From NCBI GenBank assembly GCA_014239955.1, contig JAAZXW010000021.1, positions 33,160-97,159 of the forward strand: a stretch of DNA of 64,000 nucleotides, given 5' to 3'. The stretch comes from Methanobacteriota archaeon (lineage in GTDB: Archaea; Thermoplasmatota; Poseidoniia; Poseidoniales; Thalassarchaeaceae). The notes under the pieces were generated by a model. That model did no database searches. It worked only from the letters and a program-made list of their open reading frames with translations, and was not told where the DNA came from. The translations under genes were made by a program, and so were the position numbers. Positions 25,355-40,930 of the stretch are shown here, one piece after another (position 1 is the first letter of the stretch; the number at the start of each line of letters is the position of its first letter).

Positions 25355-25429
25355 TGGTGCGCCCGCCGGGATTCGAACCCGGGACAAGAGGTTGGAAACC
25401 TCTTGTGATAACCCCTTCACTACAGGCGC
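25355..25429 (-). tRNA. tRNA-Gly (anticodon TCC)
   Basis: Reverse complement GCGCCTG TA GTGA-AGGGGTTA-TCAC A AGAGG-TTTCCAA-CCTCT TGTC CCGGG-TTCGAAT-CCCGG CGGGCGC A CCA folds into a full cloverleaf; CCA appears encoded. Confidence 0.96.
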
Positions 25430-36418: not shown

Positions 36419-36955
36419 ATGTCAGAGGGTGGTCAAGAATGGAAGGAAGCCCTGATGAGACCCAGCAGCACTCTTTCGGCTGGATCTTTTATTGTTGGAG
36501 TTTGGATGGCTTTTCTGACGATAATTAATATTGCAGTAGGTGCATATTCCGACGGTAGGAAGGTAAATTGGATTGATTTCATCACCAATGGTGAGAACAC
36601 TAGTTCAACTCATGAAATTGCATTGGCATTTCCGGATGATATTCTATTCGGATTACTGAGTTCTTTGCTCATTGGTGCTGGAGTTCTGGGGATGGGTGCG
36701 GCCAGGGAAGATGGTTTCGGAGGTTGGTTCTCAGGATTGCCCCAAGATCGGATGTTGACCAGCCTTTTTTCCACAAAGAACGGGATTGGGAGAACTCTAG
36801 CTAGTTGGATGGTTCTTTCGGGTGCTGGGTATTACATGGTTTGGAGTACAATAGAGTCGACATGGGTTGATCCGGGGGTTTACTCGGTAATGATTTCCTT
36901 CGTGATGATTGGGTTAGGTCTAAATTTGATTCAGGATGCAGCCTCGGAAAATTAA
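36419..36955 (+). CDS. Hypothetical multi-TM membrane protein
   Basis: 178 aa with about four hydrophobic segments; no recognised family. Confidence 0.65.
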   Translation: MSEGGQEWKEALMRPSSTLSAGSFIVGVWMAFLTIINIAVGAYSDGRKVNWIDFITNGENTSSTHEIALAFPDDILFGLLSSLLIGAGVLGMGAAREDGFGGWFSGLPQDRMLTSLFSTKNGIGRTLASWMVLSGAGYYMVWSTIESTWVDPGVYSVMISFVMIGLGLNLIQDAASEN

Positions 36956-37974
36956 TTGATTTCGAATTCCATTAGGAGATTCCTGCACCTATTCTTGGAG
37001 TCCTCGTCACACCACCTAATCACCACGCCACTGCCTGGTTGACCATAGATTACTACTGATCCAATGGGGGCCAAGGGGTGCAGAAGAAGTGGTGCAAGAT
37101 CTTCTTCACCGGTGACTACAATTAGGCTAGTTTCACCATTGTCCCGCCAAGATGAGATTGAGGCTTTGCAAGCCTCTAGAAGTGAGTTTGTCAACGAACC
37201 AGCCGGACTTGCACATTCCAGGAGATTATCATACAATCCGGCATTGATTTCACTCGTCTCTGGCCATTCGACTCGTTTGGTTTTCCCATCGATAAATGCC
37301 AAATCAGCTGGCCTACCTACTTTTTGGAAACCCAGAACTGTTACATCGCCCACCGCTATTATCGGACCGGTGAAATCTGTAACTTGTGAAATCTTAGAGA
37401 GTGCTTCTATTATCGCAATTGAAGTATCTTCCTCGGGACCCTCAATCAGTTGTCCGAATGGCTTCTTTAACTCATATTCAACCCGAGACGTCAGTGTTGC
37501 ATCGGAATCTATCAATGACTCTGGAATCCATGGTTCCCCTTCCCTATCCATCACTCCGGCCCTAATCTGAGAGCTTGAGATTGGGTTGCCATTCCAGGAT
37601 ATAACTCTGTCAACGGAGATGATTTCCAATGGCTCAAGGCCCCTTTCCTCTCTTTGTGAATTTATTTCTAGGCATTTGTCTATTGTCTCATTCGTACAAA
37701 TTATTGCCGTAGCATGCTGATTTTCAAGGGAGGGACCGTGTTTGTCACTGAGTAAATGAATTGAAATTCTGGATGAGTGAGTAGATGTTGCATTTTCCAA
37801 ATCGGCCTTTCTTTCTTCCCAATTCTTTACTAGTCTGTCCTTTGACTGGGCAATCTCATCATCTGTAATCCACACCTCAATCTTTTCACACTGAGATAAT
37901 CCAGTTTCAATTAGAGACATGTGACCTGAATGAAATCGATCGAAAGTACCGCCAATCAGTCCGATTCCGTGCAT
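36952..37974 (-). CDS. Archaeal phosphopantetheine adenylyltransferase fused to DUF359 (GTP-dependent dephospho-CoA kinase)
   Basis: N-terminus GLIGGTFDRFHSGHMSLIETG (archaeal CoaD), ISSSQIRAGVMDREGEPW; C-terminus PIIAVGDVTVLGFQKVGRPADLAFIDGKTKR and SLIVVTGEEDLAPLLLHPLAPIGSVVIYGQPGSGVVI typical of DUF359. Confidence 0.85.
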   Translation of the reverse strand: MHGIGLIGGTFDRFHSGHMSLIETGLSQCEKIEVWITDDEIAQSKDRLVKNWEERKADLENATSTHSSRISIHLLSDKHGPSLENQHATAIICTNETIDKCLEINSQREERGLEPLEIISVDRVISWNGNPISSSQIRAGVMDREGEPWIPESLIDSDATLTSRVEYELKKPFGQLIEGPEEDTSIAIIEALSKISQVTDFTGPIIAVGDVTVLGFQKVGRPADLAFIDGKTKRVEWPETSEINAGLYDNLLECASPAGSLTNSLLEACKASISSWRDNGETSLIVVTGEEDLAPLLLHPLAPIGSVVIYGQPGSGVVIRWCDEDSKNRCRNLLMEFEIN

Positions 37975-38007
37975 CGTCTTCCTACCTATTTGTGGATTTT
38001 CTAAGTG

Positions 38008-38292
38008 TGCCCCGGGGCGTAACGGTAACCTTCACTGCTTCGCTCAGGCTCCTGACCCACCCCAGGACGTCTGTCGAACTGCGGGGTAGTCCCTTGATTC
38101 ATTCTATTCCGTCCTCAGGGGACCTATACGCAATCCGGCCACCCGATTTGCGCCATCGATCATTCTCTCGGAAGAGTCTCGATGGTCTTCGACGGGTGGT
38201 CACCCATTCCGTGGTACCGTGTTTCACTCTCCACCTCCGGCGAGGGGGTTTCGTCCACACGGTGTTGCCGGTTGGGCAATACTCCGCGGGCA
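38008..38292 (-). ncRNA. Candidate structured RNA (~285 nt), possibly SRP-like
   Basis: Non-coding GC-rich gap; paired termini (38284-38292 with 38008-38015); stems 38216-38222/38257-38263, 38139-38145/38193-38199 and 38153-38159/38179-38185; minus-strand GGGTCAGG-AGCCTGAGC-GAAGCAG at 38035-38058 resembles SRP helix 8. Confidence 0.4.
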
Positions 38293-38299
38293 GATTTGT

Positions 38300-40930
38300 T
38301 CAAGAACCCAACGGTTGCACCGAAACATCGGTTTCTGATAGTTCCGAGTGGAAGCCAGACTTTCTCAGAATGAGTCTTTCTGAGATATTGATGTCCCCGT
38401 CCATCATCATAGTCATTGTAAAATTTGGCCATTTCTCATCGGGTTGTGCCAACCATCCCGAAAGCTTGTGAGATCGGCCAATTGAAGGAGTTCTGCCCGC
38501 CTTTACAGATTCCAAGGCTTCAAGCAAATCCCATAGATGATTGAGGTGAGGAGAGGGGTCTGAAACCCCCTTAAATGAACGTAGATAGTTCTGCAGAGGT
38601 ACCACTAATCCGGGATCGCAACCATGGTGTATTGTTGAAGAAAGTCCAGGGGCCTCGGAAATCTCACCTATCGGACGGAGGATTGCTGAACACCATGGAA
38701 TTTCGCTGTCGAGGAGTTCATCCACATCTGGACTATTCAATATCATTACTAAGAATTCTGATGAGAAAGGGGACCACCAAGAATTTGGGAGGTCGCGAAT
38801 AAATAGTGAAATATCATTTAGGTTAGCTTCTTTTTTCCCCGAAGAGTGGTCGTGTAGTCTGGACCAAGTGTTTAGATGGTGCCCCTCGGGAAGGCCGGAT
38901 CCTATGTCTCTTATTCGGCGAACAGTTCTGTCAAACTCATCTTGAGGCTTTTTTTCAATCCTATGCAGCCACTTGAGGCCGGTTAGGGCATCTAGGGATT
39001 CCCTAGGGGGATGAGATAGCCATGCCTCGACTGCCCAACCAAGAATGTCCGAATACACCTCCTTGGGCAACCATGCTGAGTTTTGTATGAAGTGAGAAGC
39101 TAACCAAGCTGCCCCACTATTGGCCTGAGTAGGATCTATTGCAGGCCATGATCTGAGAAGATTGTCTGGGTCTGCTCTAAGTTTTGAGGTGATTGTTTTT
39201 GAGAAAATCTGCTTTACTGATTCTGGTGCTTGGTCTGCAAGTTCGGAAATTCTCTCAATTGGCAGATGGTCCAAATCTAAGAGTGCCATCCACTCGGATT
39301 CTAATCTTGTAGATACTCGCTGCCATCTTTGCCACCTGTTTTTTATTGGGGATGCAATCCAAGCTGCTAGTGGATATCTTGCCTCCATCTGATTTGCCCA
39401 CTCTTCATCTCCAATGGGGTATTGAGCTATTGCGGACCTAACTATCGTTATCGATGAAGATTCGATTTCGTGTTGGAATTCTTCATTCATTGATGAAATT
39501 CCCAAGATCTCCCAAGGAGAAATCGTTGCACTATCAACTTCTTCAGTGAGATTTGTTGTTTTTCCCTGCTCGACCATTCTGACGGGAATAGTTTCTCCGG
39601 AACTTGTGCGGAAGCTCAACCATGGCAAGGTTCTGATTTTATCGACCTTTAGGGTGTCGAATGAAGAAAAATGACTGTTCACATTATCCATAATTATCAA
39701 TCTGAGACGCTGATTGGAGGCGATTCTGGATAGCAACGATTCTGGTAATTGGTGCTTTAATTCAATTACCAAAGATGTTCCCTTAGTCTCGATAGACCAT
39801 CGAATTAGGGATTCAGTTACGGTTTTACCGAGCCCCCTGATATCTATTGATCTAATGCTGGAATCATCAATGGTGAAAGTTCGTCTCCCCCATTCCTTTC
39901 TGAATTTCCTAAGTGTTGATTCTTCTACCTTTACTCTTCTCGAAGTGGAAATACGATCCCTGAGAGAGTTTAGCCGCCTCTTCCTTTCTGTTTCTGAAAG
40001 TCTTGGATGGACAATCTCAATCCAATAATCCAGAGCACCAATTGGATACTCATTGCCAACCATATCCAAGCCACTCAAATCGGCAATAACCAGAGAGTTT
40101 GCTCTAGCCGACCTAAGTAGCACTGAACGAGGGAGTCTCTCCTTAATTATCGCAGCAACTGGCTGAGAAGGCCTAATGTCAGGAGATTTACTATGTGGAC
40201 AACCCAGAATCCATTCACCTCGGTGGTATGTTGGCTCATCTAGTGGAGCTCGTTGAATCTGATCTGGTTGAGTAAACCAAACTCCGGGCGATATGATTGG
40301 GCTTGTGTGGGAATCGAGTAGTTTGGCCCTAACTATTCCAAAAATCGGAGTTTTGTCGGCATATGACTCAATACTTCCCGGACCTGCTAATTCTGGTGGA
40401 GCATTTAGAACCTCCAAATTGACTCGATCAAACCACCTTGGCAATCGTTCGGAGAGAACTGCCCAGTTCCAAGACACCCATTGGTTTCTGGTGGACGTTG
40501 CATTTTCTGGGGAAACCTTCTGGATCCGGTTTGGAATTTGCACCATTGTTTCCTTTGGAGGACTCAAAAAACACAGTGTTAGATTTTCTTCGTCCCTAGA
40601 AAGTACACAGCAACTGCCCTTGTCTAATGGCAGATCTTGCAACTCCAATACTTTAGACCACTCATCTCCCTCCAGAATCCCCCATCCCTTCTCGGTTAGG
40701 CTGATTCTTGCCCCTCTGGAGCCCGGGGGGAGATCACTAGTTGCAAGACCGTCTGCCCTCATCCTCTTAATTTCGGCAGAAACGTGAGGCATCCTCAGAT
40801 TTGAGTCGAAAGACAGTTCGGACACCGTAGATTCACCCTGTGCTAGTCTTGAAAGTAGTCTTCGACGGTGTTTACTTCTAATTTTTTTAGGTGTCTTTTG
40901 ACTGTCGGCAGGGGAAGGTTCTGACATCAA
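38300..40930 (-). CDS. Large uncharacterised protein with N-terminal winged-helix domain
   Basis: 876 aa ORF; N-term RRRLLSRLAQGESTVSELSFDSNLRMPHVSAEIKRMRADGLATSDLPPGSRGARISLTEKGWGIL is a MarR/ArsR-like wHTH; remainder unrecognised. Confidence 0.8.
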   Translation of the reverse strand: MMSEPSPADSQKTPKKIRSKHRRRLLSRLAQGESTVSELSFDSNLRMPHVSAEIKRMRADGLATSDLPPGSRGARISLTEKGWGILEGDEWSKVLELQDLPLDKGSCCVLSRDEENLTLCFLSPPKETMVQIPNRIQKVSPENATSTRNQWVSWNWAVLSERLPRWFDRVNLEVLNAPPELAGPGSIESYADKTPIFGIVRAKLLDSHTSPIISPGVWFTQPDQIQRAPLDEPTYHRGEWILGCPHSKSPDIRPSQPVAAIIKERLPRSVLLRSARANSLVIADLSGLDMVGNEYPIGALDYWIEIVHPRLSETERKRRLNSLRDRISTSRRVKVEESTLRKFRKEWGRRTFTIDDSSIRSIDIRGLGKTVTESLIRWSIETKGTSLVIELKHQLPESLLSRIASNQRLRLIIMDNVNSHFSSFDTLKVDKIRTLPWLSFRTSSGETIPVRMVEQGKTTNLTEEVDSATISPWEILGISSMNEEFQHEIESSSITIVRSAIAQYPIGDEEWANQMEARYPLAAWIASPIKNRWQRWQRVSTRLESEWMALLDLDHLPIERISELADQAPESVKQIFSKTITSKLRADPDNLLRSWPAIDPTQANSGAAWLASHFIQNSAWLPKEVYSDILGWAVEAWLSHPPRESLDALTGLKWLHRIEKKPQDEFDRTVRRIRDIGSGLPEGHHLNTWSRLHDHSSGKKEANLNDISLFIRDLPNSWWSPFSSEFLVMILNSPDVDELLDSEIPWCSAILRPIGEISEAPGLSSTIHHGCDPGLVVPLQNYLRSFKGVSDPSPHLNHLWDLLEALESVKAGRTPSIGRSHKLSGWLAQPDEKWPNFTMTMMMDGDINISERLILRKSGFHSELSETDVSVQPLGS

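Follow-up and report, generated by a model that had tools for sequence, protein, structure and literature searches.

A four-hairpin RNA gene of Poseidoniales as a probable H/ACA-type guide RNA related to HgcG

In this study we have analysed a stretch of 64,000 nucleotides (the window) from a Poseidoniales archaeon, and specifically its positions 38008-38292, which are flanked by the gene of an 876-aa wHTH protein and by coaD-DUF359, both on the minus strand. We are highly confident that the minus strand at 38279..38006 is an archaeal box H/ACA-type guide RNA gene of 274 nt, with four consecutive hairpins (HP1 to HP4, delimited in an alignment of 45 relatives) and four predicted targets in the 23S rRNA (Table 1). 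Judged by its sequence, this RNA is a relative of the three-hairpin guide HgcG/Pab40 with a new fourth hairpin, and two of its hairpins have no ANA box. Our search of the literature found no description of this RNA in Poseidoniales.

Table 1. Features of the guide RNA locus, in positions of the window; rRNA sites are predictions and carry E. coli numbers.
Feature	Position	Strand	Basis or remark
Four-hairpin H/ACA-type guide RNA gene (probable)	38006..38279	-	conserved block, 45 aligned relatives; covarying structure; homologues
Promoter-like element ACCGTTGGGTTCTTGA	38300..38315	-	at a fixed distance upstream of the RNA, about 20-36 nt; putative function
HP1 (hairpin 1; predicted target U2606)	38202..38277	-	left GCAAC, right ACC, kink-turn UGA/GA
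HP1 left guide GCAAC, invariant	38264..38268	-	alignment columns 12-16
HP1 right guide ACC, invariant	38213..38215	-	alignment columns 65-67
HP2 (hairpin 2; predicted target U2496)	38139..38199	-	covarying stems; model R3 matches HgcG stem I
HP2 left guide UCGAAG (CGAAG invariant)	38187..38192	-	
HP2 right guide GCAA, invariant	38148..38151	-	
HP3 (hairpin 3; predicted target U2586 or, alternatively, U2555)	38075..38137	-	model R1 matches HgcG stem II
HP3 left guide GGUC, invariant	38121..38124	-	
HP3 right guide ACUACCC (ACNACCC across the alignment)	38084..38090	-	
HP3 ACA box	38072..38074	-	45/45 sequences, 16 nt from pocket
HP4 (hairpin 4; predicted target U1915 in helix 69)	38009..38068	-	model R1 matches HgcG stem III
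HP4 left guide GGGUCA, invariant	38053..38058	-	
HP4 right guide GUUAC, invariant	38019..38023	-	
3'-terminal ACA box (HP4)	38006..38008	-	45/45 sequences, 15 nt from pocket

A preliminary description of this DNA had noted that this place is non-coding, rich in GC and contains long arms complementary to each other, and had proposed a structured RNA. Both observations held: on either strand the locus folds better than versions of it shuffled by dinucleotides (z -3.4; 0 of 200 reached its value), and of the two strands the minus, where an SRP-like string had been seen, is the correct one. The extent first given, 38008-38292, is slightly off: on the minus strand the true start of the conserved RNA is 13 nt later and its end 2 nt later. 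In the 45 relatives 90.3% of the cells of a 71-pair structure are paired, and the covariation among homologues that had been named as a check was found, with changes on both sides in 44 of the 71 pairs. The covariation score is 0.352 compared with 0.152 in shuffles (0 of 500 as high) and falls below 0.08 when the register is shifted by one column. On the RNA strand G-U cells exceed A-C cells (238 vs 40), which fixes the minus strand as that of the RNA. Two of the complementary arms noticed earlier turned out to be conserved helices with covariation: ACCGTGT/ACACGGT (38263-38257 with 38222-38216) is the upper stem of HP1, and CCACCCG..CCATCGA/TCGATGG..CGGGTGG makes up the helices of HP2. A proposed pairing of the termini, TGCCC(G)CGG with CCGGGGCA, is not conserved among relatives; the 5' TGCCCGCGG (about 38284-38292) is variable and lies outside the RNA, and the 3' CCCCGGGGC has its pairing partner within hairpin 4. 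Open reading frames are present on both strands, but the covariation and the indels argue against a coding explanation.

Each hairpin consists of a stem, an internal two-sided pocket and a further stem, with a kink-turn in the upper stem. In every one of the four hairpins the kink-turn bases UGA/GA vary little or not at all among the 45 relatives, and the invariant columns of the alignment are mainly the pockets, these UGA/GA bases and the two ACA boxes. Archaeal H/ACA guides are characterized by a hairpin with a kink-turn, a pocket and an ACA box at 14-16 nt (PMC4652768), and both ACA boxes of the RNA fall within this range. According to the same study, the GA stem has 8-11 bp, with 10 in productive folds, and the upper stem contains a kink-turn or K-loop (PMC4652768). 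In each of our hairpins a manual count along the 3' strand gives a GA stem of about 10 layers, provided that HP1 and HP2 are closed by a non-canonical A-Y pair and that HP3 and HP4 are each allowed one bulge. We also considered a box C/D guide, as the RNA contains AUGA/UGA strings resembling C/D boxes, but these are the kink-turn bases inside the covarying hairpins.

Could the RNA belong to one of the other well-known structured RNAs? The preliminary description had suggested a divergent archaeal SRP RNA, reading helix 8 into GGGTCAGGAGCCTGAGCGAAGCAG, in which GGUCAGG...AAGCAG does look helix-8-like by eye. The probability of this is practically nil: the string is the guide pocket of HP4 together with its kink-turn, the conserved structure is made of four separate hairpins with no Alu domain, and the sole match of Archaea_SRP (RF01857) in the genome is a full-length SRP RNA on another contig, C4 (125.3 bits, above the Rfam cut-off). 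Of the two models proposed for checking, neither RF01857 nor RNaseP_arch (RF00373) matches the window. RNase P RNA is an extremely improbable reading. In its favour, our RNA is conserved and single-copy, and RF00373 gives nothing above 8.6 bits in the genome, which is no real match. Against it, the covarying structure lacks a helix that encloses the RNA as a whole, guide pockets, ACA boxes and kink-turns account for most of the invariant bases, and the RNA matches HgcG stem by stem. As the genome is 79% complete, its RNase P RNA may be absent, divergent or on a missing contig.

The stem-by-stem match concerns HgcG (RF00064), the Pab40/Pf7 of Thermococcales, to which Afu4 of Archaeoglobus is related. 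Its stems I, II and III correspond in order to HP2, HP3 and HP4. We searched with three models, R1 of HP3-HP4, R2 of HP1 and R3 of HP2; R3 matches stem I of Thermococcales HgcG (24 bits, E 6.6e-5), and on stems II-III the match of R1 reaches 32.6 bits (E 2e-7). Stem I carries the guide GCGAGG/GCGA, which fits UUGC-U-A-CCUCGC and makes it a predicted guide for U2496 like HP2, stem III carries GGGUUA/GUUAC for U1915 like HP4, and stem II shares GGUCCCC...GGGA(A)AACCC with HP3. Both RNAs have an ACA at the 3' end. They differ in that HgcG has three hairpins and the Poseidoniales RNA four, the extra 5' HP1 being without a counterpart in HgcG, and in that stem I is followed by an ACA whereas HP2 is not. 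The earlier idea of an undescribed RNA is right insofar as no Rfam model catches it: a search of 38008-38292 gave no match even at E<=10, chance hits aside, and the HgcG model (RF00064, cut-off 77 bits) has none in the window. It is, however, a homologue of the described HgcG/Pab40/Pf7 guide.

Homologous DNA was found by DNA similarity in 130 of the 293 genomes of the order, essentially in single copy, and all of these matches are confined to the window's own family. R1 finds the RNA more widely, in 175 of 390 Thermoplasmatota genomes. R2 finds HP1 in both Poseidoniales families (in the second family a local search recovered it at 7 of 7 loci) and no convincing HP1 outside Poseidoniales, where the matches at L187-L192 reach only 20-23 bits and are unlike guide hairpins. 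In several other Thermoplasmatota, read by eye, HP2 is apparently followed by an ACA, as in HgcG. The ancestral RNA thus probably had three hairpins; in Poseidoniales HP1 would then be a gain, and the missing ACA after HP2 a loss.

The pockets are complementary to 23S rRNA on both sides of one unpaired uridine. Since the assembly of the window's own genome contains no rRNA genes, we read the targets from the rRNA of relatives, with E. coli numbering by alignment to the E. coli 23S. HP4 forms 11 pairs without a gap with GUAAC-U-A-UGACCC of helix 69 (U1915; P=0.003 against shuffled rRNA), HP2 forms 10 pairs with UUGC-U-A-CUUCGA (U2496; P=0.03) and HP1 forms 8 pairs (3+5) with GGU-U-U-GUUGC (U2606; P=0.16, which is weak alone). 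For each of these three hairpins the predicted site ranks first. We relied on this ranking against shuffled rRNA instead of an energy scan, which let guide and target slip together and was unfair to HP1 and HP2. HP3 is able to pair with GGGUU-U-A-GACC (U2586); in the window's own genome this pairing is incomplete and needs unpaired guide bases, and a contiguous scan with HP3 of the window's own type did not retrieve U2586. In genera with AUGGGUC/ACAACCCC, U2555 in helix 92 pairs even better than U2586. The predicted target of HP3 is therefore ambiguous, U2586 or alternatively U2555. The guide bases of HP3 homologues (38075-38137) are of three types, A AGGUC/ACUACC, B UGGGUC/ACAACC and C AAGGUC/ACCACC, and the candidate rRNA targets are unchanged among the genera compared despite these types. 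One 23S match among the relatives (L074, G046:C25) looks bacterial in its peptidyl-transferase sequence, scores below the other relatives, and is probably a contamination of that assembly.

The main sites, U1915, U2496, U2586 and U2606, all coincide with known yeast or archaeal pseudouridines; U2555 does not. Yeast H/ACA snoRNAs are separate RNAs; they have the eukaryotic form with two hairpins and lack the archaeal kink-turns. Among them snR46 modifies 2865 and snR42 modifies 2975 (PMC8307265), the counterparts of 2496 and 2606 by an offset of 369 (2586 vs 2955 in a table of PMC2584109), and snR191 modifies 2258, the counterpart of 1915 (PMC8307265, PMC2584109). In the archaeon H. marismortui pseudouridines are found at 1956 (=1915) and 2621 (=2586) (PMC2584109), and Hvo1/Hvo2 of Haloferax volcanii target the same two positions, as predicted for HP4 and HP3 (PMC2584109, PMC4652768); the haloarchaeal guide has only two hairpins with a long spacer between them, and no equivalents of HP1 and HP2 have been reported. 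For the three-hairpin Pf7/Pab40, stem III targets 1915, and the haloarchaeal homologue of stem II targets 2586 (PMC2584109), while a different target, L1932, has been reported for the P. abyssi stem II, Pab40.2 (PMC4652768). Pab40 also guides P. abyssi 2588 and T. kodakarensis 2592 (PMC6138745). We infer that this site is 2496, which in that region of the Thermococcus 23S is the sole uridine found with uridines at -3 and +15.

How could such an RNA work? By analogy with the known H/ACA system, L7Ae would bind the kink-turn of each hairpin and Cbf5-Nop10-Gar1 the pocket and the ACA. The rRNA would pair with both strands of the pocket on either side of the target uridine, and Cbf5, with Nop10 and Gar1, would convert the unpaired uridine to pseudouridine, at U2606 for HP1, U2496 for HP2, U2586 (or U2555) for HP3 and U1915 for HP4. 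Nop10, the only H/ACA protein checked, is present in the genome.

An ANA box is normally required in archaeal H/ACA guides, and it follows HP3 and HP4 in 45 of 45 sequences and HP1 or HP2 in 0 of 45. It may be that the RNA is only derived from H/ACA guides, that HP3 and HP4 are its active guides and that HP1 and HP2 are assembly or chaperone elements which hold the rRNA unmodified. The distribution of the boxes favours this, as does the ACA that stem I of HgcG does carry. We nevertheless consider it unlikely, as neither the HP1 nor the HP2 pocket varies and both fit positions where pseudouridine is known, and H/ACA-like guides without canonical features have been reported in Pyrobaculum (PMC4652768). 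A tentative and rather unlikely proposal is that in Poseidoniales an ancient guide for the peptidyl-transferase centre and helix 69 acquired a fourth hairpin, that HP1 and HP2 work without ANA boxes, perhaps by recruiting Cbf5 through their ACA-bearing neighbours, and that the RNA is a single multi-enzyme scaffold.

The position of the gene suggests a further reading, a cis-regulatory, riboswitch-like leader of coaD-DUF359. The latter starts 31 nt downstream of the RNA on the same strand, the RNA adjoins it in all Poseidoniales loci examined, and the synteny with it and the wHTH gene is kept in both Poseidoniales families at these loci. We find a leader very improbable, since outside Poseidoniales (L168-L180) the RNA occurs with no detectable coaD in the flank, which in most loci spans some hundreds of nt, the pockets match rRNA, and the RNA ends in its ACA tail, followed in many relatives by a T-rich stretch. 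The ORF at 36952-37974 (minus strand) joins in one frame a cytidylyltransferase-like (PPAT-type) domain and DUF359 (Pfam). We take DUF359 to be the archaeal dephospho-CoA kinase, and the ORF may encode a fused CoaD-CoaE enzyme. For the 876-aa protein (38300-40930, minus strand) the only Pfam match is a weak one to HTH_5, below the cut-off. Regarding a guide RNA gene, its transcription from its own promoter may be inferred from the element ACCGTTGGGTTCTTGA, the position of which is conserved among 50 relatives, most strongly in the window's own genus. Since the element runs into the 3' end of the wHTH gene, its conservation may in part reflect coding sequence. The stretches upstream of the SRP RNA and of tRNA-Gly are loosely similar to it; for the tRNA-Gly (TCC) at 25355-25429 (minus strand) this is ACCGAATCGATTTAG.

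With this work, a conserved and unannotated RNA gene of abundant marine archaea, a group without cultured representatives as of 2018 (PMC6461757), gains a predicted function, and a guide described in Thermococcales and Archaeoglobus gains relatives across Thermoplasmatota. In archaeal H/ACA guides one hairpin is the rule and two or three are rare (PMC7991803), and the four-hairpin form exceeds the numbers given in that review. The hairpins without ACA boxes offer a testable case for how Cbf5 can be recruited. Four pseudouridines are predicted in the Poseidoniales ribosome, all of them at core positions of the large ribosomal RNA. If the scaffold proposal is true, helix 69 and the peptidyl-transferase centre would be modified, and perhaps chaperoned, jointly by one RNA while the ribosome is being assembled.
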